Assembly: GCF_004153455.1 (NCBI RefSeq)
Contig: NZ_SDQE01000001.1
Coordinates: forward strand, 248,001 to 312,000
From: Allopusillimonas ginsengisoli
Lineage (GTDB): Bacteria > Pseudomonadota > Gammaproteobacteria > Burkholderiales > Burkholderiaceae_B
Reading direction: 5' to 3'
DNA length: 64,000 nucleotides
Shown: positions 6,457 to 64,000 of the stretch, piece by piece
How the letters are laid out: every line of letters starts with the position of its first letter
Position numbering within the stretch: the first letter of the stretch is position 1
The notes under the pieces: generated by a model
Database searches by the model: none
What the model was told of the DNA's origin: nothing
What the model saw: only the letters and a program-made list of their open reading frames with translations
Translations under genes and position numbers: made by a program

Positions 6457-7401
6457 TTATGTCTTTTGGGAATGCGCCTCAAAGGCCTTAACCAGGGTCT
6501 GGAGCGTCTCGTGCAATTGAGACACGGGATCCGCGCCGTCGGTATCCAGCACCAGTACTCGCACACCATTGGCGTCGATCGCATCTCGCAAGGCCGCCGG
6601 CGGTTCTCGGTGATGCAGCACGACCGCAACATCATTGGCCTTGAGATCAGCGGTCAGTTGGCCGATGGCGTCTTCGGTCCACTCGGCATCGGAACGTATC
6701 TCGCGTTGCGCCAGATCCAGATTGAGGCTTGCAATGAGATAATCCAGGCGATCCGACAGCGAAACAACCGTCACATTGTCTACCGCGGCGAGCGAGGCTT
6801 CCGCAGCGGCCGAAGCCTCGACCAGGCCATGTTTGATCCTGGCGAGATTGGACTGCAATGCCGCCTGTGCATCGGGCGCGAGGCGTCCGAGATCCGCAGC
6901 GATAATGTCCGCCATGCGACCCAGGTTGACGGGGCTGAGCCACGGGTAGGACGACGCGTCACTGTTTGGCTGCAAGGCGATGCCGGGCAAGGCCCGGTCT
7001 ACAGGACGTGCTGCGTCGATCTCTACGATACGAATATTCGATTGGCGGGAAAGCGGATACAGCACATCATCGGGCCAGATCGAACGCAGGCCAATGACGG
7101 CGTCCGCACCAAGGGCCAGACGGGCCAGCGCTTGGGCACCGCGTCCCGCATAATAGGAAGCGTGCCGTGTCGCGGGTAGCCGCGCAGGCGCAGCCTGGAC
7201 AACGCTCACTGAAGTGTCGGCCGTCAATGCCTTCGTTAATGCAAATGCCACGGGATGGCCTGCCAACACCTGCGTCTGCGCCGCCTGTTTCACTACAGGT
7301 AGTGCGGCTGCGGATTCGGCCGCCAGTGTTGGTGCTGGTGTCAATACGAAAACAATTGCGCAAGCCAGCGCCCCAAGCGCACGGGCATGTAATGGCATCA
7401 T
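6457..7401 (-). CDS. TroA/ZnuA-like periplasmic binding protein, second and divergent copy
   Basis: A 314-residue secreted protein with a signal peptide ending near LTPAPTLAAE. It resembles the cluster A-I metal-binding receptors of ABC importers in overall layout, including a long central helix and a WLSPVNLGRMADIIAADL block. However, places where ZnuA proteins carry metal-ligand histidines are altered: the usual NPHxW reads SSYPWLSP, and the usual FHDAY-type site reads SLSDRLDYL. It ends the metal-transport operon, overlapping the permease stop by four bases. It may bind something other than free Zn/Mn, act as an accessory protein, or be degenerate; I cannot decide from sequence. Confidence 0.7.
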   Translation of the reverse strand: MMPLHARALGALACAIVFVLTPAPTLAAESAAALPVVKQAAQTQVLAGHPVAFALTKALTADTSVSVVQAAPARLPATRHASYYAGRGAQALARLALGADAVIGLRSIWPDDVLYPLSRQSNIRIVEIDAARPVDRALPGIALQPNSDASSYPWLSPVNLGRMADIIAADLGRLAPDAQAALQSNLARIKHGLVEASAAAEASLAAVDNVTVVSLSDRLDYLIASLNLDLAQREIRSDAEWTEDAIGQLTADLKANDVAVVLHHREPPAALRDAIDANGVRVLVLDTDGADPVSQLHETLQTLVKAFEAHSQKT

Positions 7402-20157: not shown

Positions 20158-20250
20158 TGGCGGAGACGGAGGGATTCGAACCCTCGATACGGGTATAAGC
20201 CGTATGCTCCCTTAGCAGGGGAGTACCTTCAACCACTCGGCCACGTCTCC
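20158..20250 (-). tRNA. tRNA-Ser (anticodon GCT)
   Basis: On the minus strand, GGAGACG (acceptor 5') pairs with CGTCTCC; the D-arm is GTGGCCGAGTGG, the anticodon loop is CTGCTAA with GCT, the long variable arm is CATACGGCTTATACCCGTATC, and the T-arm is GAGGGTTCGAATCCCTC. The terminal GCCA is encoded, at 20158-20161. The length of 93 bases and the long variable arm are typical for serine tRNAs that read AGC/AGU. Confidence 0.97.
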
Positions 20251-50085: not shown

Positions 50086-50745
50086 TTAATATTTTGTTTT
50101 AATATATCTCCTGCCGAGATCAAGAACTTGTTCGCGAGCCAGTTCCCCTGCTTGCTCACCCTCTCTAGCCGAAAGTAATTCAAGTAAAGCTTGATGCTCC
50201 ATGGGGGATCTTGCTGGGTATTTCATAGTGGGGCCATAATACAGATGTAATATCGATGAATGAATCAATAATTCACTCAATGATTTCTTCAGCCACGAAT
50301 TATTTGCCACGTCCGCTATTTTGAGATGAAATGCCCGAGACACTTTCAAAATATTAACCAAGTCTTCCTTGTCTGCATATTGTTTCTCTTCCTCTATTAA
50401 CGTGGATAACTCCAATATATCAATATCAGTAATATTCCTAACACACCACTCAGCCGCAAGCTTAGCCAATTCCGCACGAAAACTGAAAACAGCTTCCGCT
50501 TCATTAATACTTAATCGGCGGATCATTGCTCCTTTACTCACTTGAGTATCTACAAGCCCTTCTTGCGCCAATTGTTTTATTGCACTTCTAACCGGAGACC
50601 TACTAACTTTACATAAATCACTATATTCCTGCTCATTCAAGCGCATCCCAGGAAATATTTTCCCATTTAATAGCTGCCATAAAATATAGCGGTAGACACG
50701 CTGATCCAGCGGTTGCTCCGGGCCAATTTTGTCATCACTCAACAT
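50086..50745 (-). CDS. GntR-family regulator, FCD-type
   Basis: A 219-residue regulator. The N-terminal winged helix spans about 10-75 (VYRYILWQLLNGKIFPGMRLNEQEYSDLCKVSRSPVRSAIKQLAQEGLVDTQ) and the all-helical C-terminal domain (NEAEAVFSFRAELAKLAAEWCVRNI, SRAFHLKIADVANNSWL) is of the FCD type, which binds carboxylate ligands through metal. It is the last gene of the AT-rich island on the minus strand. A TTGTATACAA palindrome, a frequent GntR-FCD operator form, lies upstream of the island's monooxygenase gene. Confidence 0.9.
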   Translation of the reverse strand: MLSDDKIGPEQPLDQRVYRYILWQLLNGKIFPGMRLNEQEYSDLCKVSRSPVRSAIKQLAQEGLVDTQVSKGAMIRRLSINEAEAVFSFRAELAKLAAEWCVRNITDIDILELSTLIEEEKQYADKEDLVNILKVSRAFHLKIADVANNSWLKKSLSELLIHSSILHLYYGPTMKYPARSPMEHQALLELLSAREGEQAGELAREQVLDLGRRYIKTKY

Positions 50746-51149
50746 TCGTTACTGTATCCCTTACCCACTCGTTGCATTTTAATTTGAACCTAGTTGTAAG
50801 CGTATCATTACGCCTTACGACCACATTATTGTCGGTCTCTACTCATTTCAGAAAATTCACACTTAGCATGTAGTGACTTCATGAGCAAAGCTGTCGTCGT
50901 CTTCATCAGCCAAGACCGAGACCATCCCCTATCAACAGTCTAACTATCAATGCATGAATGTCCGCCACAACGTCGATATCAGAAGATCCGAGAATCATAC
51001 CCGACTTTTATTAAATTTTTAGCGCAAAGCCTCAGCTTGTTAAAAAGCAACACTGCGCAGCGTTGTCTTCGATTGCAGTGCCGGGCCGGTAGCGCTGGCA
51101 CCATGTGCTGCATGCGTAGACAACTAATAGGGTATCCAACAGTTCAGAT
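50746..51149. other. Promoter region of the GntR gene, no gene seen
   Basis: 404 AT-rich bases between the amidase stop and the GntR start. An imperfect inverted repeat, GTTGTAAGCGTA near 50790 with TACGCCTTACGAC after a short gap, is a candidate regulatory site. No coding frame with a recognised domain was found; an 87-codon frame at 50950 has no support. Confidence 0.45.
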
Positions 51150-52403
51150 TCAGGCTCGAACTATTGCTTCGATCCGATTAGCAAAAGTCAGCAAGATAGG
51201 ATCGCAATGCTGAGCGGCTATTAGCTGCACGGATAGAGGCAATCCCTTCGTTCTACTGATGGGCATTGATATGACAGGCATTCCAGTAATTGTCCAAAGA
51301 GCCTGATACAGTGGTGAACCTGTATGATCGCGATGCCATTGGGGAATTAGTCCATCTGTCGCTGGCGATACGATAATAGTCTCATCGTCCATCTGCCTCC
51401 CAATCTCGCGCGTTACGGCCTCGCATTTCTCTACCGCCATTTGATATTCAATATCAGATATTTGCTGTCCACGCTTGAGCAAACTAAGTAGCTGGCAACT
51501 AACACTATCTTTATGCCGTTCCAACAGGTCGCAATGAGATCGAGCTATGTTATAGGCAACAATAGTTTGAGCTAGAAGAAACGCTGCCGAGAAGGTTAAA
51601 GGAAGACGAAGTTGGGAAACGCAAATTGACATATGGGTTAAACGTTGCACGAAGGATTGCAAGGCGACCGCCATCGCCGGCTCGAGCGGATATCGCGTAT
51701 CCGGTGTTGTCAGCAATACCTTTGATACGCGTGAGTTATTTTCTGGCAGCGGAATGTAGGGTATATCCGCCAGATAGTGAACAACGAAATGCAAATCTCG
51801 AATGTTTGAACCGATTAACCCCACATGATCCAAAGGCGGAGCCAAAGACATCATGCCACCAGTATTAAGCAACTGTCGGGTAGGTTTAAAGCCGATCACA
51901 CCGCAAAAAGCAGCGGGCCTCACTATAGACCCTATCGTTTGTGAGCCTATAGCGATGGGAACTATCCCGGCCGCAACTGCCGCTGCGGAACCGCTGGAGG
52001 AGCCCCCAGGCGTCAATTCAAAGTTCAAAGGGTTCCGCGTGGGTCCCGCACGCGCAATAGCGAGCTCCGTTGATATCGTAGTGCCAGCAACTAAAGCGCC
52101 GAGCTGTTTCAATTTGATGACAATATTCGCATCTTCAGTCGGCACTCGGCCATGCAACGCGGACAACCCCCAAGTACACCGGAGCTGCTCCACATCAAAA
52201 ACCTCTTTGACTGCAATAATCAGTCCATGCAAAGGGCCTCGCAGGCTATGCGGTCGTCGATCAAGCTCCTTTGCACCAGCCAGTAAACGTCCCAGGTCAA
52301 AATCACGAAATGCATGCACCGAAGCATCTCTCTTAATTAGCTTTTCCCCAACGCGGCCTGCTACTTCCGTCGCAGTTTCGGTGTGATGCAGGAAGCCTTG
52401 CAT
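51150..52403 (-). CDS. Amidase-signature family hydrolase
   Basis: A 417-residue amidase. The Ser-cis-Ser-Lys triad is visible: Lys in GLIIAVKEVFDV near 62, first Ser in PGGSSSGSAAAVAAG near 130-145, and second Ser in GSQTIGSIVRPAAFCGVIGFKPTR near 149-172. The C-terminal GLPLSVQLIAAQHCDP is typical. Such enzymes hydrolyse amides, ureas and N-acyl bonds. A GGAG eight bases before the ATG at 52403 decides that start over 52433. It is the only amidase next to the island's transporter, and may release ammonia or an acid from the imported compound; the substrate is unknown. Confidence 0.92.
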   Translation of the reverse strand: MQGFLHHTETATEVAGRVGEKLIKRDASVHAFRDFDLGRLLAGAKELDRRPHSLRGPLHGLIIAVKEVFDVEQLRCTWGLSALHGRVPTEDANIVIKLKQLGALVAGTTISTELAIARAGPTRNPLNFELTPGGSSSGSAAAVAAGIVPIAIGSQTIGSIVRPAAFCGVIGFKPTRQLLNTGGMMSLAPPLDHVGLIGSNIRDLHFVVHYLADIPYIPLPENNSRVSKVLLTTPDTRYPLEPAMAVALQSFVQRLTHMSICVSQLRLPLTFSAAFLLAQTIVAYNIARSHCDLLERHKDSVSCQLLSLLKRGQQISDIEYQMAVEKCEAVTREIGRQMDDETIIVSPATDGLIPQWHRDHTGSPLYQALWTITGMPVISMPISRTKGLPLSVQLIAAQHCDPILLTFANRIEAIVRA

Positions 52404-52588
52404 AGTATTAACTCCGGAGACGCTTAAACTCATTAATGACTTTGATCTTTAACTACCACATCAAACTCAATACACGTCACTGACAAGTATTTCAACCATA
52501 AGTAGAAGTGACCGGCTCTGACTGCTATGAGCCGGCTCCCCAATTCGCATATTTCATCACATCCAACACAAGTAAAGAGTGCGAGTCA

Positions 52589-53623
52589 TCAATTAACCGT
52601 CTTATTGAACTGTTCCATCCATTTTCCAATATTGCTGTTTATCATGGCATCGTCAAACTCTACCGTATCCGCTGCTTGTGGCAGAATTTCGGCAAGCTCT
52701 TGAGCGGGATGCACCGCATTGTTCACCGGCCCCATGAAAAGGCGCTCGGCAACTATCTTTTGGCTCGACTCCCTCATGAGAAAATCAACAAATTTCGCCG
52801 CAGCCTCCTGTTTGGGCCCATTAATAATCATCATCACATCCATACCAACTGGCGAAGGCGCGGGACTGACTGCGCCAATAGAAAAACCGGCTTCCCGAAG
52901 CTCCTTCACACGTTTTGAATTAGTAACCAAAGCAGCGATTTGACCACTGGCCACAGCCTGTCGAGCCTGGGAGTCAGACCCATAAATCAGACCAATCTGC
53001 GGCTTCAGCTCTCTAATTCGCTGAAAACCATTCATAATATCCGGCTCCTGTCCATCGCCAAGTCGGTTGGCAACCAACAGAAATTGTGCCTGAAACATGT
53101 TCATATCTGGGATGCCAACCTTTCCTTTCAGATCGTTGCGCGTCCACAGGTCTTCCCATGATGTAATATCTTCCTTAAGAAGATCTTCTCTCCAAAGAAC
53201 TAGCAACGGATAGTAATAAAGGCCAACATACTTACGGCGAAGCGCCCCATCCATAAGATTGTCAAGATTTTGCATAGAAGCTACTGGAATATCAGCAAAT
53301 AGTTGTGTGTCGCTGGAAGCCCGCTCAGCTACAGATTTAGTGGTAAACCAAACATCAACCAACGGCTTATCCTTCATAAAACGCAACTTTATGAGTCCTT
53401 CTCCGGAAGAGGCTTGAGTAACCGGTCGAACTTTGATACCAGTCTCTTTTTCAAATTCTTTCGCCAAACTTTCCCCCAATATTGTCCACGTAGTGCCCCA
53501 TAATAAAACGCTGATTTCCTTCACATCGCTAGGAGAACTGGCAAACGAATTACTATTCAAACACCCAACTCCGATTCCTACACCAGCGATGACTCCAATT
53601 ATAAATTTATAAACTCTAGCCAT
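52589..53623 (-). CDS. PotD/iron-type ABC transporter substrate-binding protein
   Basis: A 344-residue receptor of the family 1 (spermidine/putrescine/Fe3+) type. A hydrophobic export segment precedes GCLNSNSFASSPS. Residues ~20-340 match the fold: ISVLLWGTTWTILGESLAKEFEKETGIKVRP, LPVASMQNL-like and LWTRNDLKGKVGIPDMNMFQAQFL. Such receptors take polyamines, opines, thiamine or sugar-acid-like solutes; the substrate is not determined. GGAGG lies seven bases before the ATG at 53623. It is followed by two permease genes and an ATPase gene upstream on the same strand. Confidence 0.9.
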   Translation of the reverse strand: MARVYKFIIGVIAGVGIGVGCLNSNSFASSPSDVKEISVLLWGTTWTILGESLAKEFEKETGIKVRPVTQASSGEGLIKLRFMKDKPLVDVWFTTKSVAERASSDTQLFADIPVASMQNLDNLMDGALRRKYVGLYYYPLLVLWREDLLKEDITSWEDLWTRNDLKGKVGIPDMNMFQAQFLLVANRLGDGQEPDIMNGFQRIRELKPQIGLIYGSDSQARQAVASGQIAALVTNSKRVKELREAGFSIGAVSPAPSPVGMDVMMIINGPKQEAAAKFVDFLMRESSQKIVAERLFMGPVNNAVHPAQELAEILPQAADTVEFDDAMINSNIGKWMEQFNKTVN

Positions 53624-53669
53624 TTGTTCCTCCATAATTTTTTATGAAAATCTTAAAACCATAATAATT

Positions 53670-54458
53670 TCACCCATCAAGGCGTAGAAATTTGTCTATT
53701 CCAAGCGTTTTTTCAATAAAATAAGTTAATATCACGGTCATGAGGATAAGTACGCCGGATAGCGCAGCAACCGTTGGGTCATCGAAGTCTCTTATATATT
53801 GAAATGTCTCCACAGGAATAGTCGTATGCCCAGCCCCCGCCAAAAAGGCAGTAATAGCAAAATTATCAAATGCCTGAGTAAACACAAATATGCTACCTGC
53901 CAAAAGACCGGGTTTAAGCTGCTGCAGTGTCACTGATGAAAATATTTGCCATTCACTAGCTCCTAAGGTTCTGGCACACTCCTCTATATCAGAATTAATT
54001 GATCTAAAAGTCGATATCAATGCACGCAATGCAAAAGGAAAAGTGAAAATAACCATACCGACAACTAGAAGGAAATAACCGCCAGTTAGGCCTCTCGCGG
54101 ATCCGAAGCTCAATATAACCACGCCCGTAACCACACCAGGAACGAGTAGCGGTGACATTAATAAATTATTGATAGTATCCCGGCCAAAAAAATTGAATCT
54201 TGTTAACGCAATGCTGGTTGGAATTGCTAACAATAAAGATACCGGCGTAACTATGGCAGTCATAGTGATACTGGTACGAAACGCTTGTCTGAATCCGTCA
54301 TTCTCATACAAACGTACATACCACTTTAAAGATGGCCATTCGGCCGGCCATGAAAAATATACACTTGAAACAAATGAGTAGAATATTATAAAAAAAACAG
54401 GAGTCAAGAGAAAACAGCAGACAAATATTGTTATGCTAAAAATCCACTTATTATCCAT
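53670..54458 (-). CDS. ABC transporter permease, PotC-type
   Basis: A 262-residue inner-membrane protein with six predicted transmembrane segments. The EAA loop reads DIEECARTLGASEWQIFSSVTLQQLKPGLLAGSIFVFTQAFDNF near 155-200. It ends with IEKTLGIDKFLRLDG. Together with the PotB-type permease four bases upstream it forms the membrane channel. Confidence 0.92.
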   Translation of the reverse strand: MDNKWIFSITIFVCCFLLTPVFFIIFYSFVSSVYFSWPAEWPSLKWYVRLYENDGFRQAFRTSITMTAIVTPVSLLLAIPTSIALTRFNFFGRDTINNLLMSPLLVPGVVTGVVILSFGSARGLTGGYFLLVVGMVIFTFPFALRALISTFRSINSDIEECARTLGASEWQIFSSVTLQQLKPGLLAGSIFVFTQAFDNFAITAFLAGAGHTTIPVETFQYIRDFDDPTVAALSGVLILMTVILTYFIEKTLGIDKFLRLDG

Positions 54459-54462
54459 TTAC

Positions 54463-55329
54463 TCAACCTCCTATTTTCAATAAATGCCGAACAAAACGCT
54501 CCAGAAATATAAAAAAAGCCATAGTTAATAACGTTCCCATTAAAAACACCGTAGAAATAGCTGCAGCGAATGGAAAATCAAAAGTTGAGAGGACCTGATC
54601 ATAGATCATGTTTGACATCATCATGACTTTTCCACCACCTAACAACAATGGAAAAACAAAAGCACTAACAGCCAACGCATATGTTAATGAAGCGGATGAG
54701 ATAATAGCTGGCACCGTAAGAGGCAAAGTAATTTGACGAAGCACTTGTGTTACGCTCGCTCCTAAAGTAAACGCAGCATCTTCGTATACCTTCGATGCAG
54801 CCCGAAACCCGCTTATAAGCGTAAGCGCGGTAAAGGGCACTAGGAAGTGGAGCAGACTTACATAAACACCAGTCCAATTGAAAACCATCTGTAAAGGTGC
54901 GTTAGTTAGCCCCAACATAACTAATATATAATTAATTGGCCCATTATTTCCAAGCAAGATTAACCAGGCATATGCTAGTGTCACGACCCCTGATAGAAAC
55001 GGTACGATCAAGGCCAATAACAATATTTTTCTAATATAAGGTGAATTCGCTCTGTTGTAGATCAACGCCACCGGATATGAAAGAACTAGAGAGATTATTG
55101 TAAGAACTAATGCTACCCATAGCGTTCGAAAAAGCACTTGTAAATAGTATGAATCCGTTAGAAGTCGTATATAATTATCGAGAGTTAGAGATTGCTGCCG
55201 GCCGGTTACTTGTGAATCCCATAGACTGCTACACAGAAACGATAGTAATGGTATGAAATATGCAGCCATCACCACAATAGCAGGGACAAGAAGGCCCAGA
55301 ATTTTAAGATTTCTTTGCCGATACCTCAT
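54463..55329 (-). CDS. ABC transporter permease, PotB-type
   Basis: A 288-residue inner-membrane protein with six predicted transmembrane segments. The EAA loop reads VYEDAAFTLGASVTQVLRQITLPLTVPAIISS near 180-211. The long N-terminal periplasmic segment before the second helix (SLWDSQVTGRQQSLTLDNYIRLLTDSYYLQV) is typical of PotB. It is spaced five bases from the ATPase gene. Confidence 0.92.
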   Translation of the reverse strand: MRYRQRNLKILGLLVPAIVVMAAYFIPLLSFLCSSLWDSQVTGRQQSLTLDNYIRLLTDSYYLQVLFRTLWVALVLTIISLVLSYPVALIYNRANSPYIRKILLLALIVPFLSGVVTLAYAWLILLGNNGPINYILVMLGLTNAPLQMVFNWTGVYVSLLHFLVPFTALTLISGFRAASKVYEDAAFTLGASVTQVLRQITLPLTVPAIISSASLTYALAVSAFVFPLLLGGGKVMMMSNMIYDQVLSTFDFPFAAAISTVFLMGTLLTMAFFIFLERFVRHLLKIGG

Positions 55330-55334
55330 TTATT

Positions 55335-56444
55335 TTATTCCTGTAAAAGCATAATGTTGGCCGGATCAATACGCAGTTTAACGAGCGAATTTATATTATG
55401 AGGCTCTCCATTTCGCGGGGTATTAGTATATAGAATGCCAACATTCGGCACATCTATCTCGTAATACAATCGAGAACCGCTATTACCGGTCATCACTATC
55501 TTTCCCGAAAAGGCATATTCTCCTTCATATTCATCATTCATTACCTCAATTAGCTCCTGCCGAATACCTAGAGCTACCTCCCCCACAGCCGAAAGAGTAT
55601 GACCATTTGCACAAAATATTGAAACTTTCCAATCCCGCCCTAAGCTTACTTGAATATCATTTGGCCCAATTCCAATAACTCGTCCTTTTAGAATATTGCA
55701 ATTTCCAAGAAAATTCGCAGTAAATACTGTCCTGGGGCGATCATAAACACGTGTGGGTTCTCCGAGATCCTCCACCTCTCCCTCGGACATTACAAGTAGG
55801 CGATCGGATAGGAGTAACGCTTCATCTTGATCGTGCGTAACAAAGATGGTTGTAACCTTCAACTCAAGTTGTATTTTTCTAAAAGCAATCCGTAATGAAT
55901 CTCGCAACTGACGATCAAGTGCGCTAAACGGCTCATCCAATAGTAATACTTGCGGCCGGGTGATCAGGGCACGTGCTAAAGCCACACGCTGTTGTTGACC
56001 TCCGCTAAGCTCAATGGGGTAACGGTCTTGATATTCCAGAAGAGATACTAAAGAAAGCATTTCCTTAACGCGCATGGCAATCTCTGATTTATTTACCCCT
56101 CTCACTTTCAATCCGTAGGCTACATTTTCGGATACGGACATATGAGGAAACAGCGCGATACTTTGGAATAGCATGGCCACGTTACGCATGTTGGTTTTCA
56201 ACGTGTCCACCCGGGTACCGTTGATCCATATCTCACCACTGGTAGGCTCTACAAGACCCGCTATCATACGTAGTATGGTGCTTTTACCACATCCACTAGG
56301 CCCTAATAGGGTGAATAACTCTCCCTCTTTTATATCTAAATTTAGATTGCGTACTGCCGGCTGCTCACGATATGTTTTTTTGATATTTCGAAGTTGGAGC
56401 GCCGAGCGATTTAAGTTTGCCATCCCGCCGACAACGTGATTCAT
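55335..56444 (-). CDS. ABC transporter ATP-binding protein, PotA-type
   Basis: A 369-residue ATPase. Walker A is GPSGCGKSTILR near 50-61, the signature is LSGGQQQRVALARAL near 147-161, Walker B is LLLDEPFSALDRQ, and the switch His is in VTHDQDEALLLSDRL. The C-terminal part (about 250-369) is a TOBE-type regulatory domain. It energises import by the two permeases downstream. A 208-base AT-rich gap separates it from the flavin reductase gene, so it may have its own promoter. Confidence 0.95.
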   Translation of the reverse strand: MNHVVGGMANLNRSALQLRNIKKTYREQPAVRNLNLDIKEGELFTLLGPSGCGKSTILRMIAGLVEPTSGEIWINGTRVDTLKTNMRNVAMLFQSIALFPHMSVSENVAYGLKVRGVNKSEIAMRVKEMLSLVSLLEYQDRYPIELSGGQQQRVALARALITRPQVLLLDEPFSALDRQLRDSLRIAFRKIQLELKVTTIFVTHDQDEALLLSDRLLVMSEGEVEDLGEPTRVYDRPRTVFTANFLGNCNILKGRVIGIGPNDIQVSLGRDWKVSIFCANGHTLSAVGEVALGIRQELIEVMNDEYEGEYAFSGKIVMTGNSGSRLYYEIDVPNVGILYTNTPRNGEPHNINSLVKLRIDPANIMLLQE

Positions 56445-56652
56445 ATCTGTCTCTCTCCGTTATAGTTGCTGAACGCATATTATGCTATTCTTTATTCAAC
56501 TATTCTGTCACCCTACGCACAAATTCTTTATAAATTAGAAAAAGCCTGCATTTAAAACCTTATCCACTAACCGTCGAACAGCCTTCAATGCTGGCAAGTA
56601 TTTATTAATTTGCGCTCTTGCATATTCGTTCTAAACCCTTGAACCAGTATTG

Positions 56653-57138
56653 CTACATTGTGCAAATTGCTACACTATAAAAATCTCTTGAGTAATATAC
56701 CAACGGTTTTGCTGCCTCCCCAAGACCGACCTCCTCTACGCGGCCAATAACTATATAATGGTCTCCTGCGGAGATTGCGCTATCTAACGTACACTCAACA
56801 AACGCTACTGCGTTTTTCAAACGAAGTGCTTTTGGCTCTCCGGCGTTATGATTTTCCATAAATTTTGCGTTTCCTTTTCTCGATGCAAACTCTGCAACAT
56901 CAGTTTGAGAGTCCGCAAGAAAATTCACGCCGAATGTAGAGCATTTAATAAAAAACTGTGTTGCATAATTATGCTTTGCAACACAAATCAATATCATCGG
57001 CGGATCCATCGAAAGGGAACAGCAGGAAGTCATCGTAACTCCCCAAGGACGCCCCTCTATAAACGTTGTAGCTACGGCCACTCCGCCCGCTAATCGGCTC
57101 ATCGCTTCCCGAAATTCTATTTTCAAATGTTCGTTCAT
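56653..57138 (-). CDS. Flavin reductase (HpaC-like, DIM6/NTAB family)
   Basis: A 161-residue flavin-reductase-like split-barrel protein. It has the family start FREAMSRLAGGVAVATTFIEGRPWGVTMTSCCSLSMDPPMILICVAKHNY and SAISAGDHYIVIGRVEEVGLGE. HpaC proteins supply FADH2 or FMNH2 to HpaB-type monooxygenases. The gene lies in the same unit as an HpaB-type protein three genes upstream, supporting a two-component oxygenase. GAGG is present just before the ATG at 57138. Confidence 0.92.
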   Translation of the reverse strand: MNEHLKIEFREAMSRLAGGVAVATTFIEGRPWGVTMTSCCSLSMDPPMILICVAKHNYATQFFIKCSTFGVNFLADSQTDVAEFASRKGNAKFMENHNAGEPKALRLKNAVAFVECTLDSAISAGDHYIVIGRVEEVGLGEAAKPLVYYSRDFYSVAICTM

Positions 57139-57166
57139 TGAGCACCTCTATTTTATTTATACTCTG

Positions 57167-57865
57167 TTAATAAATAAGAGCCCCATCCATCCCTATTTCT
57201 GTAGTCAAGGGATAAAACTTTGTTATCGGTTCATTTTTAAGACGACCAACGTGTGCAACCCATTCCTGATATGCTTGGCGTAGTGCAGTTATTGCATTTT
57301 CGGCCCAGTCTATTCTTAGATCGACACTTACGGGCCACATGGGATTACGTTTATTAGTATCCAGTAATAGAGTTGCAGAATGCGGGCCTCCCAACTCTCC
57401 TCCTGCTAATTGTCCTGCCTCGATCGCCCCCATCAAACGTTGGGCTAAAGATATATTTTTAGATCTGCTGAAGGCTTCCCCAATCGCGTCAACTACCTGT
57501 TTACCTATAACTAAATTTCCACATGCAACGAAGTCATTTCCAATTACGTGCCCCTTCCAGTCTCGTGTCGACGTGCCAGTAAATGCTGCGCCCTCTCCAT
57601 TCCAATTGAGCGCACCAACCTGTCTATATTCACGATTACTGTCACACCGCAGCGAGGCTTCCAACGCATCCTTTGGTGGAATACCTTTTTCCATCAACTG
57701 TAAAATATGATGACCATGAAAAGAATTAGTTCTGGCCTGCGTGATTACAGCCCCCACGGTTGAGGAGAGAAATGGGCAATGGCCTCCATGAGAAATGCTT
57801 GCACTGACAGTGCAGATGCCAATTTGATTAGATTCTTTACATAGACCCACAATAGAAAAAGTCAT
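57167..57865 (-). CDS. DUF1028-family Ntn-like hydrolase
   Basis: A 232-residue protein of the DUF1028 family, predicted to have an Ntn-hydrolase-type fold. The start TFSIVGLCKESNQIGICTVSASISHGGHCPFLSSTVGAVITQARTN matches the family pattern. The C-terminal half holds an acidic DxRxDW-type stretch (VDLRIDWAENAITALR). It is often found beside amidases or peptidases in catabolic clusters. Its ATG overlaps the M20 peptidase stop by four bases (ATGA), so the two are probably translated together. Confidence 0.88.
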   Translation of the reverse strand: MTFSIVGLCKESNQIGICTVSASISHGGHCPFLSSTVGAVITQARTNSFHGHHILQLMEKGIPPKDALEASLRCDSNREYRQVGALNWNGEGAAFTGTSTRDWKGHVIGNDFVACGNLVIGKQVVDAIGEAFSRSKNISLAQRLMGAIEAGQLAGGELGGPHSATLLLDTNKRNPMWPVSVDLRIDWAENAITALRQAYQEWVAHVGRLKNEPITKFYPLTTEIGMDGALIY

Positions 57866-59055
57866 TCCTCTGTTCCTTTAGGTATATTCACTAAATCGTT
57901 TTCAGCTAAAAGTGCAGTAAGTATCGCGCCGCGTTCTGAAAAACTATGTAGCGGTACCACCTCTCTTTTACTGCAGATGTCAATTCCAACGGGCCCGAGC
58001 CCATCTAGCGTAGGAACTCCTAATGCGGCCGCAAAACTTCCATCCGATCCCCCAGGCGTACTCATTTCACCAAAATTTGATACCTTCAAATGATCAGCAA
58101 CAACCTTGGCGCGGCGAAACAATTCTTGCACCCCCTTGGAGCGCGGAAAAATTGGCCGTGTAATTCCTCCTCGCCAAGCCGTTTTCGTCCCTGAAACATA
58201 AGTTTTTGCCGAAATTTCCTGTACTTTCCGACATACTTCCTCCAATAACTCCATGGTATGAGCTCGGACGTCTACATGCATAACTGCTGACTCCGGCACC
58301 ACTTGTTTTGCCACTCCACCTTTTGCAACACCAACCGACACTCGACAGCTGAAATCCGAAGCAGTGAGGTTTTCATAAGCGATGATCTTATGGGCCATCT
58401 CCACTACAGCGCTGGCCCCGAAGTCATAGCCAGCATGTGCCGTCACCCCAGCGATATCAACAATGTATGTAGCAAGTCCTCGGCGACTAGTAACTAAATA
58501 CCCATTTTTTCGTGCTGGTTCCAAACATAATGCACAATCAACTGATCTCACCTCCCGCTCGATCAATGCTCGGCTGGAGGGACTACCAACTTCTTCGTCT
58601 GAGATCAGCAGAAACTTCACATGTTCAGGGCCTTTGATGTTCAAAGCATCTATAGCGTCGAGCGCAGCCAGCCCCATAACGTTGGGGCCTTTCATGTCGC
58701 CCGACCCCGGCCCAGTAACCATGCCTTCCTTTATCGAGAATGGCCAGTCCTTCACTGTTCCTTTAGGCCACACCGTATCGCAATGGCCAATCAATACAAC
58801 GGTGCCCTTGTTGCCGTCAGGCCGATGGCGTTCCGCGATCAAATGAGGTGCGAATTGTGGATCGGTTTGCTCCGCTCTCACATCAAAGCCTCGTTTCTTC
58901 AATTCTTCGGCGAACACACTTCCGACAGCTTTGACCCCTTCAACGTCATAACTTCCACTGTCAATGTTGACTACTTTTTCCCAAATCTGTAGGTAGTCTT
59001 CTAAATTTTTTTCAAAAAATTCCTTTGCTTTTTCGCCAACCTTAATCAACTTCAT
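57862..59055 (-). CDS. M20-family metallopeptidase (carboxypeptidase G2-like)
   Basis: A 397-residue zinc hydrolase. Metal-site residues are in VLIGHCDTVWPKG near 88-100 (His and Asp), GPGSGDMKGPNVMGL (bridging Asp) and ISDEEVGSPSSR (two Glu). The dimerisation domain is between. A PGGSDGSFAAALGVPTLDGLGPVG block and the C-terminal HSFSERGAI supply the last ligands. CPG2-type members cleave C-terminal amino acids from N-acyl or N-aryl compounds such as folates. GGAGG five bases before the ATG at 59055 sets the start. Confidence 0.94.
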   Translation of the reverse strand: MKLIKVGEKAKEFFEKNLEDYLQIWEKVVNIDSGSYDVEGVKAVGSVFAEELKKRGFDVRAEQTDPQFAPHLIAERHRPDGNKGTVVLIGHCDTVWPKGTVKDWPFSIKEGMVTGPGSGDMKGPNVMGLAALDAIDALNIKGPEHVKFLLISDEEVGSPSSRALIEREVRSVDCALCLEPARKNGYLVTSRRGLATYIVDIAGVTAHAGYDFGASAVVEMAHKIIAYENLTASDFSCRVSVGVAKGGVAKQVVPESAVMHVDVRAHTMELLEEVCRKVQEISAKTYVSGTKTAWRGGITRPIFPRSKGVQELFRRAKVVADHLKVSNFGEMSTPGGSDGSFAAALGVPTLDGLGPVGIDICSKREVVPLHSFSERGAILTALLAENDLVNIPKGTEE

Positions 59056-59108
59056 AAATACCTCCAATTTATTAAATTTAGCTTATAGATCGAATATTTA
59101 TAATTACA

Positions 59109-60563
59109 TCAGCCCAAAATCCGATCTAGCTCATCTGCACGCTCCAATATTCGCTTTGCACGAGCTATTGAGGTTGACTGATCATATGATCTAAATAATG
59201 TTGCAGCCTGAACGTGCGGAGGACTTTCCGCAAACATTTGATAGACTGCTTTTTGGCCAGCATAAGATGAAGAAGTTAGATCGGCTACTAGATTAAGTAC
59301 GCGTAACCGATCCTCAGCTTCGACGCTCCCGACTCGAAAATATTTTTTAACTACTCCACCAGTTTCAGAGCTTTCTAAACTTGCACGGTCGGGAACGAGA
59401 ACAGCGCTTCCCCCCGCTAAGTCTCTCAAGGTATGTATTGCGTGATGATAATTTAGTGCTGCATACATGCGCCCAGCATAAATCTGTGTTTGACCTGGAT
59501 ACATGACACCGTTTTTTCCGACGTAGCAATCTGCTTCTGCACTGATGACATGACCATATATTGTTTGGCGATAAAGCATCAGCTGCGACAACTTCTCTTG
59601 AATGCTGGGAATATTTGACAGTTTTGAATGGCCGGTAACCATCAATGCTGCGCCAACAAGCAAATCAGCTTTTGAGAGAGCTCTAATTAAATAACTGTAC
59701 GCGCCAAATCGGTGCAGATGGGCCCGCAATTCTTGGGCAACCACGGGATTTCGAGAGAAAAATACATCTTGCCAAGGAACAAATACGTTATCCATGACAA
59801 TCAGTGTGTCAATCTCATCAGCATGATAAGTTAACGGCCGGTCGAACGATGTTGTTCCAGAGGCCATCGACCTGCGACAGATATGAGTAATGTTTGGATG
59901 ATTTAACGGAACAACGCATGCCACTGCGAAATCTTTATTTTTGTCACCCCAACTGCCTACCGTGGGTTTGACAAACGCAACGTTAGCGTACGATGCTCCC
60001 GTTTCAAATTTTGCACCTCGGATCACAATTCCATCATCATTCTCTTCAACTACCCGAACATGCATATCCAAGTCGTCCTGCTCAAAGGGTTGTTTACTTC
60101 TGTCGCCCTTTGGGTCTGTATTGGCGCTGGTCATAAACTCTTGAGTGCTCTGCAGTCGTCCTAACCAATGATCGACGGCGGCGGCGTAACGAGCATCATG
60201 TTGCTGCAGTATGTCTTTATTGTCATGAAGCGTGAATAAGGCCGACGCAGTTTCATCTCCAAACCTATCCAGAGTCCCTCCGATTTCACTTAAAGCAGCT
60301 AGAGTTCCCAACCTCACATGCTCCAAGTCTTCTCTAGTCTCCGGGAATTTATGAAATCGACTGACACGTTCTCCATTCGATGTTGTGGTTAGGTGCTGAC
60401 CTATTTCGGCATCAAAATGCATATCGTATAGACGTGCGATATTTTCAACCATCGAACGAAAAGCAGGGTGTGTCGTTACGTCAGACACCCTTTCTCCCGA
60501 AATATAAACATTCCGCCCGTCCCTAAGACTCTCTTTGTACTGTTCACCGGTTTTCAAACCCAT
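59109..60563 (-). CDS. HpaB-type FADH2-dependent aromatic hydroxylase
   Basis: A 484-residue member of the 4-hydroxyphenylacetate 3-monooxygenase large-component family. Its N-terminus (TGEQYKESLRDGRNVYISGERVSDVTTHPAF) is typical. The acyl-CoA-dehydrogenase-like fold continues with AKFETGASYANVAFVKP near 185-201 and DEIDTLIVMDNVFVPWQDVFF near 251-271. It needs reduced FAD, which the HpaC-like protein in this unit can supply. It is the first gene of the island operon: AAAGGAGG precedes the ATG and a GntR-type palindrome lies about 35 bases upstream. Confidence 0.93.
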   Translation of the reverse strand: MGLKTGEQYKESLRDGRNVYISGERVSDVTTHPAFRSMVENIARLYDMHFDAEIGQHLTTTSNGERVSRFHKFPETREDLEHVRLGTLAALSEIGGTLDRFGDETASALFTLHDNKDILQQHDARYAAAVDHWLGRLQSTQEFMTSANTDPKGDRSKQPFEQDDLDMHVRVVEENDDGIVIRGAKFETGASYANVAFVKPTVGSWGDKNKDFAVACVVPLNHPNITHICRRSMASGTTSFDRPLTYHADEIDTLIVMDNVFVPWQDVFFSRNPVVAQELRAHLHRFGAYSYLIRALSKADLLVGAALMVTGHSKLSNIPSIQEKLSQLMLYRQTIYGHVISAEADCYVGKNGVMYPGQTQIYAGRMYAALNYHHAIHTLRDLAGGSAVLVPDRASLESSETGGVVKKYFRVGSVEAEDRLRVLNLVADLTSSSYAGQKAVYQMFAESPPHVQAATLFRSYDQSTSIARAKRILERADELDRILG

Positions 60564-60596
60564 CTCCAGCCTCCTTTGCTAGCGTGTTATACATTA

Positions 60597-60606
60597 TTGT
60601 ATACAA
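60597..60606. promoter_or_regulatory. GntR-type operator palindrome before the HpaB operon
   Basis: TTGTATACAA is a perfect 10-bp palindrome 33 bases upstream of the monooxygenase ATG. It overlaps a second symmetry, TATACA-TTAT-TGTATA (60588-60603). TTGTATACAA matches the general TxGTxxxACxA form of FCD-type GntR operators. The island's own GntR gene is the obvious candidate binder; this is inference. Confidence 0.62.
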
Positions 60607-60728
60607 GATAGTATTTCATGTCAATTTCCTTTTGATTTTTAAAGTTTCCAAGAATTATTCGGCTGAATGCCAACAGAGAAACAGGATTGTTACGACGCAA
60701 AGCTCGAATAAGCGACGTAACAAAGATG

Positions 60729-61997
60729 TGACCTTGTTCCGGTTTCACGTACAGCAGGAATTGCTTGAATTCTTACTGTACGCAGAGCGATGATGAAAGA
60801 GAAAAATATCGGCAAGAGGGAGTACACCGAGGAGTTCAAGGTTGAAGCGGTTCGCTTGCTGGAGTCCGTTGGTGTTAATGAAGCAGCCCGAAGACTGGGT
60901 GTGCCTACGGCCACGGTGGGCAACTGGGCTCGTCAGGCGCGCAAGGAAGAGTCTGTGACGTCGATGCTCTACCTGGCCTGTCTAAACGCCTCGTCTCAGA
61001 GCTGGAGGCCGAGAACAGCCGACTGAGAAAGGAGCTGGCAGAGGCCAAATTGGATGTTGAAATTTTAAAAAAAAGCGACGCCATACTTCGCCAAGGCTTC
61101 GCGATGAAGTATGCCTGGATCGAACAAAACCGCGGCCATTACGCAGTTAGCAGTTTGTGTCGCCTTTTGTCGGTATCTCGTTCCGGTTACTGCCAATGGC
61201 GAACGCGGCCCCGGAGTTCTCGAGCTAGAGAAAACGCGTCGCTCGATGCTCGAATCGCAGTGATTCATCTTGAGAGCAAAGGCAGCTGTGGCAGGCCCAG
61301 AATCATACAGGCGCTGCGCCAGCAAGGCTTGCGTTTTGGCAGCGAGCGGGTACGCCGCAGTCTGTTGCGCCAGGGTTTGAATCCGGTCTACAGACGCCCT
61401 TACCGGGTCACAACCGATTCGGACCACAAACTGCCGCTTGCTCAAAATGTGCTCTAAAGACGCGTCGATGGCTGGCATCCGAATCAGGCGTGGGTAGCGG
61501 ACATTACGTATGTGGCCACCGGTCAGGGATGGCTGTATTTGGCCGCTGTACTTGATCTTGCCACTCGTCGGATAGTCGGCTGGTCGATGTCTGAGAGGAT
61601 TGATGCCGCGCTTGTCTGCTAAGCCCTGAAGTCTGCCCATTGGCAACGAAAGCCGGCAAAGGGCCTGATCCTGCACACGGATCGCGGCAGTCAGTATGCC
61701 AGCCATATGCATCAGAAGCTGGTATCGCAGTATGGCTTCGTGATGTCTATGAGCCGCAAGGCCAATGCTTGGGATAATGCGCCAATGGCTAGTTTCTTTA
61801 AAACGTTGAAAGTGGAGAGGCTTTATCGGGTCCATTATCGTGATCGCCAGCAAGCTCGGCTCGATATCGTGGATTGGATAGAAGGCTTTTATAACCGACG
61901 ACGCCTGCATTCCTCGAACGGGTTTCAGGCCCCAGTTACTGCTGAAGCCATGTTGAAAGCAGCATAACTTGGTATACGTGGAAGCGAGGCAGGGTCA
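60729..61997 (+). mobile_element. Degenerate IS3-family insertion sequence
   Basis: The 1269-bp element is bounded by imperfect terminal inverted repeats: TGACCTTGTTCCGGTTTCAC at the left (60729) and TGACCCTGCCTCGCTTCCAC as read inward from the right end (61997). They agree at about 26 of the first 36 positions. The length and the two-frame transposase are typical of the IS3 family. No target-site duplication is visible: the flanks read GATG on the left and TTCC on the right, which suggests rearrangement after insertion. The right end lies inside an integrase gene. Confidence 0.9.
60790..61967 (+). pseudogene. Broken IS3-family transposase (OrfA-OrfB)
   Basis: OrfA begins KREYTEEFKVEAVRLLESVGVNEAARRLGVP; around 60960 a one-base loss shifts the frame from the OrfA reading to the frame carrying ELEAENSRLRKELAEAKLDVEILKK. 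An A8 run at 61067-61074 is the expected frameshift site. OrfB continues (MKYAWIEQNRGHY...) but is interrupted by stops at 61455 and 61620. The catalytic residues seen are Asp in WVADITYVAT and Asp in HTDRGSQYAS, while the third acidic residue, expected as Glu in DNAPMxSFF, reads Ala (codon 61788-61790). This makes four independent inactivating changes. Confidence 0.92.
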
Positions 61998-62633
61998 TTC
62001 CCCCTCGACCTCAATTTGTCGCGCAGAATCAACTGCCACCAATTTGGCGTGTCTACGGGCAGCGGGCCAGCTTCCAACGTATAATCCCAGGCCGCACCCA
62101 ATTCGCGCCGAAGAATTCCCGCCTGGACAGGCTTGTCGACGAAGCTTTGGATCACACCGAACGCGATCGACCGAGTAACCTCAACGACATCCATTTCTGC
62201 TACACCGCCGAGCACCGTGTCGAACGTGCGTCGAATCTCTTTCGCACCTTTCGGCGCCCGGTTGGGGTCGATATGGCCATCCAGGTAACAATTGCAGACT
62301 TGGCGAGCCGCCCGCACGCCCGCCCCCTTGCGTTGCTTGGCCGCTTGTTTCTGCACGGCCACTTCGGCTTGTTCGGTACGTGCCTCCATCGCGGGATCCT
62401 CACCAGCATCAGGTTGCGTACGTAAGGACTCCCAAGCGACAATAGCAGCAGGAAGAGACATGATAGGCCAATGCCCGATCTTGATTTGACGCATCCGGCC
62501 ATCCGTCGGGCTTTTATATTTGTACGCCCAGGTGCGCCTGGTTTCGAAAGCTAACAACCGGAGCCCCGGGGCCATCAATGTTAATGTGTTGTTTTGGCTG
62601 CAGCAGTTTGGCTGCTATCGCGTCGAATTGCAT
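61998..62633 (-). pseudogene. Tyrosine-recombinase (P4-type integrase) gene, truncated and frameshifted
   Basis: The minus-strand gene starts at the ATG at 62633 (MQFDAIAAKLLQPKQHINID). Near 62575 a frame change is needed to reach PGLRLLAFETRRTWAYKYKSPTDGRMRQIKIGHWPIMS, the arm-binding N-terminal domain of P4-like integrases. The central part VCNCYLDGHIDPNRAPKGAKEIRRTFDTVLG follows. The frame then enters the IS3 right end at 61997 with no catalytic Arg/His/Tyr region left, so only about half of the enzyme remains. It is non-functional by both defects. Confidence 0.85.
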
Positions 62634-63142: not shown

Positions 63143-64000
63143 TTACAGCCAGCCTGGTCGATTTCCCCAATCTATCGGGAAGCCTATTTCTGCCAAATGC
63201 ACCTCTGGGTATTTGGCAAACAGGGCTTTCAACTGTTCTGACCATTCCAGCGGTAGGCCTATTTGTCGCAATAGGTAATTGATAACCGTTGCCACGGCAT
63301 AGAACGATTTTGAATCGGAAAACCGAATGTCTGCCTTACGATAATCTCTGGGAGCAACGCCAAGCGTCACGCGAAGCAGTTGCCCGCTATGAGCCACCAT
63401 GTTCCGTACAACTGTCAGAGTATGAATCCACGATTCAAATACTTCAGTCGCATCCACATTGAAGCGCCGACTGATTGCTTTGCGATCATCGGGATTCTTC
63501 AGCAACTGATAGGTTCTGGACCAAAGCCCAAAGGTTACGCACTCGCATACTGACCAACTGGGCGGAAGATGCGGTTCGCTGTACCGCGAGAAATAATGCT
63601 TCACAAATGTCTTGTCGCGGGCTCGATCTACCTCGGCCTCGATCTTCGCCACAAGCTCAGCTGCGCCCTGCCGCCGCCCTTGCCTGAACAAGTTACCATC
63701 CAGGAACCAATGCGGAGAATGCTTCAGACTCAGATGGTTTGCCATCACGACCCGCACCGCAATTTCCAGGCGCTCGACGGCAGCCATGGTCAGGGCTCGC
63801 AGCTCTCTATCAAACTCGCAGCGGCTGACAATCTGTTCGAACCGATATCCAGCGGGAAAGTTTTTCGTGACTGGATCGACCAGATGATGCCAGTACCCTT
63901 TGAGACGATATCCGCCCACGAAACGCATGTAATTACGCGCTTGCCCACGCTTAAAATCATCCACGACCAACCCCTGCCGCTCCAGCTTCTGGAGAAGCTG
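63143..64000 (-). CDS. Abi_2-family protein (AbiD/AbiF-like), truncated by window edge
   Basis: The frame enters from the right edge, so the N-terminus is missing; about 285 residues are visible. The stretch LVVDDFKRGQARNYMRFVGGYRLKGYWHHL is the Abi_2 N-terminal signature, and RELRALTMAAVERLEIAVRVVMANHL follows. An Rx4H motif of HEPN type lies in VVRNMVAHSGQL. Abi_2 proteins were first found as phage abortive-infection factors. It is the last gene in the window, beside integrase remains, and is likely cargo of a mobile element. The anti-phage role is inferred from the family. Confidence 0.85.
   Translation of the reverse strand, partial: QLLQKLERQGLVVDDFKRGQARNYMRFVGGYRLKGYWHHLVDPVTKNFPAGYRFEQIVSRCEFDRELRALTMAAVERLEIAVRVVMANHLSLKHSPHWFLDGNLFRQGRRQGAAELVAKIEAEVDRARDKTFVKHYFSRYSEPHLPPSWSVCECVTFGLWSRTYQLLKNPDDRKAISRRFNVDATEVFESWIHTLTVVRNMVAHSGQLLRVTLGVAPRDYRKADIRFSDSKSFYAVATVINYLLRQIGLPLEWSEQLKALFAKYPEVHLAEIGFPIDWGNRPGWL

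Follow-up and report, generated by a model that had tools for sequence, protein, structure and literature searches.

An apparently divergent, probably catabolic HpaB–DUF1028 gene cluster in a low-GC island of Allopusillimonas ginsengisoli

We analyzed a window of 64,000 nucleotides from Allopusillimonas ginsengisoli (contig NZ_SDQE01000001.1, positions 248,001–312,000), in which ten open reading frames (ORFs) on the minus strand, at window positions 50086–60563, encode an HpaB-type flavin oxygenase together with three hydrolases, a flavin reductase, the parts of an ATP-binding cassette (ABC) importer and a regulator. ORF and Pfam analysis confirmed the families and the order given in a preliminary description of this DNA, namely, in the direction of transcription, HpaB (domains HpaB_N and HpaB), M20 (Peptidase_M20 and M20_dimer), DUF1028, HpaC (Flavin_Reduct), PotA-like (ABC_tran), PotB-like and PotC-like (both BPD_transp_1), PotD-like (SBP_bac_8), amidase (Amidase) and GntR-FCD (GntR and FCD). 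The features of the locus are as follows.

59109–60563, minus strand: HpaB-type flavin monooxygenase of 484 residues, R-E-S subfamily (Pfam HpaB_N 278 bits, HpaB 162 bits)
57862–59055, minus strand: M20 metallo-hydrolase, carboxypeptidase-G2-like (Pfam; PDB 1cg2)
57167–57865, minus strand: DUF1028 protein with N-terminal Met-Thr, overlapping the M20 gene by four bases (Pfam; PDB 2imh, E=6.3e-22)
56653–57138, minus strand: HpaC-type flavin reductase (Pfam Flavin_Reduct 115 bits)
55335–56444, minus strand: ABC importer ATPase, PotA-like (Pfam)
54463–55329, minus strand: ABC importer permease, PotB-like (Pfam)
53670–54458, minus strand: ABC importer permease, PotC-like (Pfam)
52589–53635, minus strand: periplasmic binding protein, PotD-like (Pfam)
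51150–52433, minus strand: amidase-signature hydrolase (Pfam)
50086–50745, minus strand: GntR-FCD regulator (Pfam)
60596–60624, minus strand: promoter TTGACA-17-TACAAT 5' of HpaB (11 of 12 consensus positions)
60597–60606, no strand: mismatch-free palindrome TTGTATACAA across the -10 box, candidate operator for GntR
60790–62578: broken pieces of an IS3-type transposase (plus strand) and an integrase arm domain (minus strand), at the right edge

The genes from HpaB through M20 and DUF1028 to HpaC are separated by 41 (measured to a TTG codon), -4 and 28 bases, and those from PotA to PotD by 5, 4 and 34 bases; the intervals before PotA (208 bases), the amidase (155) and GntR (404) are wider, so that a single transcript for all ten genes stays a proposal. 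For M20, the ATG at 59055 is a more likely start than the TTG at 59067 because the latter sits within the GGAGGT ribosome site. The guanine-cytosine (GC) content of the island, reported as lower in the preliminary description, is 0.41–0.49 across 49–61 kb versus 0.57–0.63 across 22–50 kb in 2-kb windows (approximately 45% for the gene run versus 59% upstream), and at third codon positions it is 0.36–0.46 in the ten genes. A search of 45–64 kb against Rfam returned zero matches.

The HpaB protein carries the motifs RFGDET at residue 100 and TSANTDPKGDR at 145, and its two domains, its conserved Arg and the separate flavin reductase would place it among two-component group D flavin monooxygenases. 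Its score against TIGR02309, the model for HpaB 4-hydroxyphenylacetate 3-monooxygenase, is 252.9 bits versus a cut-off of 480.2. In TtHpaB, Arg100, Tyr104 and His142 anchor the hydroxyl group of the substrate (PMC6506529); the corresponding residues of the window protein are Arg, Glu and Ser. We aligned 32 near rows, the window protein included, and 13 distant rows. Arg100 is conserved in all 31 near rows with data, position 104 is Glu in 30 and Asp in one of 31, and position 142 is Ser in 32 of 32, as opposed to the distant rows, where Arg100 is retained in 12 (one gap), Tyr104 in 11 (one Asp, one gap) and His142 in 12 (one Gly). This residue pattern sets the HpaBs that accompany DUF1028 apart as a subfamily whose pocket differs and, with two of the three phenol-holding residues gone, the window enzyme is probably not a 4-hydroxyphenylacetate hydroxylase, a point on which the preliminary description is supported; the same probably holds for the subfamily as a whole. 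In the HpaB tree, 30 rows fall into one clade (support 100/100), that of the RidA-associated clusters described below, and the window protein and that of plasmid pLA6_003 are two deep branches outside it; given a long-branch warning and midpoint rooting, their mutual relation is unsure.

The hydrolases retain the hallmarks of their families. The solved structure closest to M20 is carboxypeptidase G2 (CPG2; 1cg2, E=8.4e-36), and the H/D, D, EE and E motifs, which begin at residues 94, 121, 156 and 181 (numbered from the TTG), match the CPG2 type, the last His falling outside the aligned stretch. These motifs provide the metal ligands of M20 enzymes, and CPG2 releases glutamate from aromatic acyl-glutamates. 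DUF1028 (PF06267), carried in Pfam as a family of unknown function, scores 185.2 bits against a gathering score of 26.2. Thirteen of 14 aligned DUF1028 proteins begin with Met-Thr, the exception being a Bacillus protein for which the start used lies upstream, and we take this N-terminus to fit the N-terminal-nucleophile hydrolase class. The amidase (Pfam 199.2 bits) shows AVKE (74), GGSSSG (143) and GSIVRP (from 166), and the family uses a Lys/Ser/Ser triad; at 1e-50 it had no match among the plasmid records searched. As for the importer, the ABC folds assigned in the preliminary description stand, but all four proteins miss the NCBIfam spermidine/putrescine cut-offs (PotA 330.4 versus 482, PotB 137.9 versus 348, PotC 122.4 versus 326, PotD 38.1 versus 582). 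These scores give polyamine import no support, and "PotA–D type" is a fold label only. The best PDB match of the PotD-like protein is 4edp (E=1.3e-17), with PotD itself at 1.7e-10 and a mannopine binder at 4.5e-9.

The combination of HpaB with DUF1028 recurs. We assembled 31 loci of HpaB relatives 34–47% identical to the window protein, from 11 of 16 plasmid records and from all 20 other genomes that gave a match; the genomes come from overlapping samples with matches in 6 of 299 others, 8 of 397 (two of them repeats), 3 of 368 (one a repeat) and 7 of 292 (one a repeat), and a few loci are almost duplicates, L050 and L075 sharing an identical HpaB. At a distance of up to 11 kb from HpaB, DUF1028 and RidA, an enzyme that deaminates enamines and imines, were each found at 29 of the 31 loci, LysR at 25, a flavin reductase and a PotA-like ATPase at 21 each, an ArgE-type M20 at 17, PotD at 12, an FMO-like flavoenzyme and HutD at six each, and AspA at three; a CPG2-type M20 and GntR each occurred once, on pLA6_003, and an amidase at none. 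The two loci missing DUF1028 and RidA lie on contigs shorter than 8 kb (L072 and L073). Several plasmid loci supplied query proteins, so that the matches in their rows follow by construction; the 20 genome loci supplied no query, and 18 of them carry both DUF1028 and RidA. In contrast, 13 distant HpaB loci (28–31% identity) from an HpaB scan of genome contigs had DUF1028 at none, RidA at two, a flavin reductase and a PotA-like ATPase at three each, and PotD at none, with the limit that the stretches L013, L017 and L025 are shorter than 14 kb by at least one length count, so that partners may fall outside. If the cluster family is defined by an HpaB with the Arg-Glu/Asp-Ser signature beside DUF1028, the window locus belongs to it, although it has no RidA gene within 11 kb of HpaB; 12 RidA-family matches lie elsewhere in the genome.

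Examples of HpaB–RidA–DUF1028 clusters, many of which also include ArgE and an importer of Pot or Liv type, are found on pAM01 of Aminobacter MSH1, pAMI6 and pTAV3 of Paracoccus, pW43B of Parasedimentitalea, pRACO34Ac of Rhizobium and pPM400 of Bacillus badius. They share with the window the HpaB signature and DUF1028, frequently along with a flavin reductase, an importer and a deacylase of the M20 family, and differ from it in having mostly LysR as regulator, RidA and an ArgE-type M20, in lacking the amidase and in an HpaB 34–41% identical to that of the window. A Klebsiella plasmid has RidA, DUF1028 and ArgE next to an FMO-like flavoenzyme, with HpaB absent from the stretch viewed; by annotation alone, the same holds for Burkholderia and Pantoea, and in Paraburkholderia the FMO-like enzyme accompanies RidA and DUF1028, with ArgE absent from the stretch viewed. 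The Parasedimentitalea FMO-like protein scores 378.5 against TIGR04046 (cut-off 498.35). An FMO-like enzyme with the shared hydrolytic genes is as expected if the oxygenase acts first. Klebsiella accounts for 105 of the 221 plasmid records with a DUF1028 match, and in pJNQH579-1 of Klebsiella variicola (L054 1146–9822) the RidA–DUF1028–ArgE–FMO-like set is joined by a GMC oxidoreductase, an aldehyde dehydrogenase and an NCS1-family permease.

Among known systems, the Rut pyrimidine pathway is analogous, combining a flavin oxygenase, a flavin reductase, a hydrolase and a RidA-family protein; RutA, however, is luciferase-type rather than HpaB, and RutB and RutD belong to other hydrolase families. 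An imidazoleacetate or histamine pathway was considered and set aside, with HutD near six and AspA near three of the 31 HpaB relatives and neither at the window locus; it is a lead for some relatives. Riboflavin degradation was likewise rejected, the cluster described in the accessible part of PMC12746152 having a different gene set.

The closest cluster lies on pLA6_003 (CP031588, Paracoccaceae bacterium La 6), which was listed first in three separate tblastn searches of 72,556 plasmid records, with HpaB (47% identity), PotD (40%) and M20 (39%); in the M20 search, two Proteus records had slightly better E-values. Its neighbourhood comprises GntR, a luciferase-type monooxygenase, an aldolase, a flavin reductase, HpaB, a CPG2-type M20, DUF1028 (annotated "hypothetical", identified by Pfam), PotC, PotB, PotA and PotD. 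Nine of the ten window gene types thus occur together there, the amidase being the exception. Identities range from 25% (GntR), 26% (HpaC) and 30% (DUF1028) to 38–45% for the Pot parts. The pLA6_003 cluster, whose regulator is also of the GntR-FCD type, differs from the window in gene order, in running in two directions, in lacking the amidase in the annotated stretch, in having RidA approximately 8 kb away, in the additional luciferase-type monooxygenase and aldolase, and in carrying CTGCATRCAG in place of TTGTATACAA. Homologues of these genes therefore occur together elsewhere, as the preliminary description requires, and the set is no chance gathering of neighbours; a second locus with all ten genes was not found. 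Near the pLA6_003 cluster (L058 8507–16089) lie genes annotated as RutA, RutD, RidA-like, thiaminase and formylaminopyrimidine deformylase, perhaps a region for nitrogen-heterocycle degradation.

Upstream of the window HpaB, the palindrome covers the -10 box of the predicted promoter. By count alone it is not significant (0.74 expected at up to one mismatch; at least one in 50 of 100 shuffles), and the ten promoter-like sites in the region are below the mean of shuffled sequences (21.2); only its perfect form and its place on the -10 box suggest a regulatory site. On pLA6_003, CTGCATRCAG occurs with zero mismatches 5' of GntR (8384), HpaB/HpaC (11925) and PotD (19226), and aligning TTGTATACAA to these sites leaves a common core TG-AT-CA. 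The pattern has 13 matches versus 2.71 expected, a ratio that overstates the case, as the pattern was written post hoc from the plasmid sequence and several matches pair across both strands. The three perfect sites 5' of cluster genes are the firmer point, and three promoters with a common palindrome look like one regulon on that plasmid.

The mobile debris that the preliminary description saw on the flanks was borne out on the right, by the IS3-type pieces and the integrase arm domain; on the left, the ORFs scanned yielded a polyphosphate kinase, a GNAT acetyltransferase and nothing else, with no further search there. Beyond the window, approximately 6.4 kb from the end of the catabolic cluster, a conjugation set (contig C11 314968–326684; positions 6968–18684 of L080, which is C11 308001–327900) comprises TrbI, CagX/VirB9, VirB8, TrbL/VirB6, a VirB4-like protein, a T2SSE-type ATPase and a VirD4-type coupling protein. 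A DUF3363 protein, a relaxase relative, follows further on (L093), as does a phage-type integrase at C11 372686, and together these genes look like an integrative conjugative element beside the cluster. The four other genomes of the genus that were searched lack the M20 gene at E≤1e-60, and two of the four have no HpaB match at 1e-80. An abortive-infection-like Abi_2 protein is encoded between the catabolic island and the conjugation genes (window 63143–64000; full ORF L080 3143–4204).

Gene content, recurrence with the same partners, the subfamily signature and a foreign base composition are directly established, and they support the proposal of a transferred catabolic unit joining import, two-component flavin oxygenation and amide hydrolysis. 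The reading we favor, at a probability of about 0.5, is a horizontally acquired unit for import, flavin-dependent oxygenation of a non-phenolic, probably nitrogen-containing compound and subsequent amide hydrolysis, under a GntR repressor; substrate class, step order, the assignment of cuts to hydrolases and the regulator's site are predictions from sequence. The PotABCD-like importer would take up a small nitrogen-containing compound, and HpaC would supply FADH2 with which HpaB and O2 oxygenate it, probably activating or opening an N-heterocycle rather than hydroxylating a phenol. The product would be an acyl-enamine or a lactam, whose amide bonds DUF1028, the M20 deacylase and the amidase could cut to give amino or oxo acids for growth. 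GntR-FCD may hold the hpaB promoter off through TTGTATACAA until the substrate or product binds. The changed pocket, combined with an amide-type hydrolase and an enamine/imine deaminase as constant neighbours, is what leads us to infer a nitrogen-containing non-phenol as the substrate of HpaB; the loss of two of the three phenol-binding residues also weakens the aromatic substrate of the preliminary description. The window cluster has an amidase but no RidA, so that its last steps may differ from those of its relatives.

Several points weigh against this reading. None of the cluster members has a known substrate, and, as the window cluster lacks RidA, the case for an enamine is drawn from its relatives. 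HpaB and the FMO-like enzyme occur together in six relatives and so need not be alternatives, and an E. coli plasmid stretch carries RidA–DUF1028–ArgE with neither oxygenase. The window DUF1028 is nearer to that of Klebsiella (39%) than to that of pLA6_003, and the window HpaC is nearer to those of Bacillus badius and Aminobacter; the set was therefore not inherited as one block. The GntR identity to pLA6_003 is low, and the wide intervals before the amidase and GntR possibly place both outside the unit. The M20 enzyme, finally, is CPG2-like rather than of the ArgE type frequent among relatives, and such an enzyme would suit deconjugation as the first step.

That order is the one the preliminary description had proposed: an N-acyl or amino-acid conjugate is imported and split by M20, DUF1028 and the amidase, and the freed ring is then hydroxylated by HpaB/HpaC. 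The kinship of M20 with CPG2 and the missing RidA speak for it; the altered phenol-binding residues, the lack of a ring-cleavage dioxygenase among the ten genes and the association of HpaB relatives with RidA and DUF1028 in 29 of 31 loci speak against it. Because this HpaB's relatives travel with DUF1028 and RidA, we consider oxygenation first the likelier order, and the absence of a known substrate, the DUF1028 and HpaC kinships and the CPG2-type M20 leave it at even odds, with the conjugate-first order rather unlikely. The locus might instead consist of two unrelated units, an HpaB–M20–DUF1028–HpaC operon next to an importer–amidase–regulator unit, as the wide gaps and a Pantoea plasmid, where a binding-protein relative (34%) and ABC parts lie within a different hydrolase cluster, would allow; with pLA6_003 holding both parts and its three promoters sharing a palindrome, we find this improbable.

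Ordinary 4-hydroxyphenylacetate catabolism, with HpaBC hydroxylating this or another phenol beside unrelated neighbours, draws on the HpaB and Flavin_Reduct domains and on the fact that the top-scoring solved relatives, TftD (1.9e-52) among them, are all phenol oxygenases. The window shares the fold family and the two-component FADH2 supply with the HpaBC and TftD-type chlorophenol monooxygenases, but Tyr and His are replaced subfamily-wide by Glu/Asp and Ser, its neighbours are hydrolases and an importer, and the TIGR02309 score is far below the cut-off; we rejected this explanation as very improbable. Still more remote is an isomerase or dehydratase akin to 4-hydroxybutyryl-CoA dehydratase/vinylacetyl-CoA isomerase. 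The PDB matches include enzymes of this type (6vjr, E=3e-43; 1u8v, E=2.8e-35), but TftD and other oxygenases outscore them, a flavin reductase is part of the gene run and a CoA ligase is absent from the ten genes.

Returning to the oxygenation-first reading, we tentatively suggest, as a possibility that falls short of even odds, that the window carries a deep branch of an aerobic pathway not described so far, whose HpaB-fold oxygenase has been retooled, through its Arg-Glu/Asp-Ser pocket, to oxygenate and open a non-phenolic N-heterocycle, with DUF1028 as amidohydrolase of the oxygenated ring. DUF1028 would then gain a function, a swappable oxygenase (HpaB/HpaC or FMO-like) would feed one conserved hydrolytic part, and one such pathway would be spread on plasmids and chromosomes across Pseudomonadota and into Bacillus. 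The parts belong to known families; it is their recurring combination that appears undescribed, with the window as a divergent member of the cluster family. The open-access literature yielded no description of this gene set and no work on HpaB–RidA–DUF1028 clusters, the pLA6_003 cluster or DUF1028; subscription papers lay mostly outside this scope, and a description may exist there. Current annotations label such HpaB relatives 4-hydroxyphenylacetate hydroxylases or TftD despite the changed phenol pocket. The recurrence of HpaB and DUF1028 alongside RidA, an importer and a deacylase of the M20 family points to a single catabolic pathway that is still missing; working it out would put many annotations right and might uncover a novel route for the opening of nitrogen rings.

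Two further features were observed around the island. L092 4785–17621 encodes a COX1-type oxidase and a heavy-metal P-type ATPase, preceded by DsbD and thioredoxin-like genes, possibly cargo of the same element. A second, smaller dip in GC content, down to 0.54 at 15–21 kb of the window, contains a tRNA-Ser (gct) at 20158–20250 and is a possible separate island.

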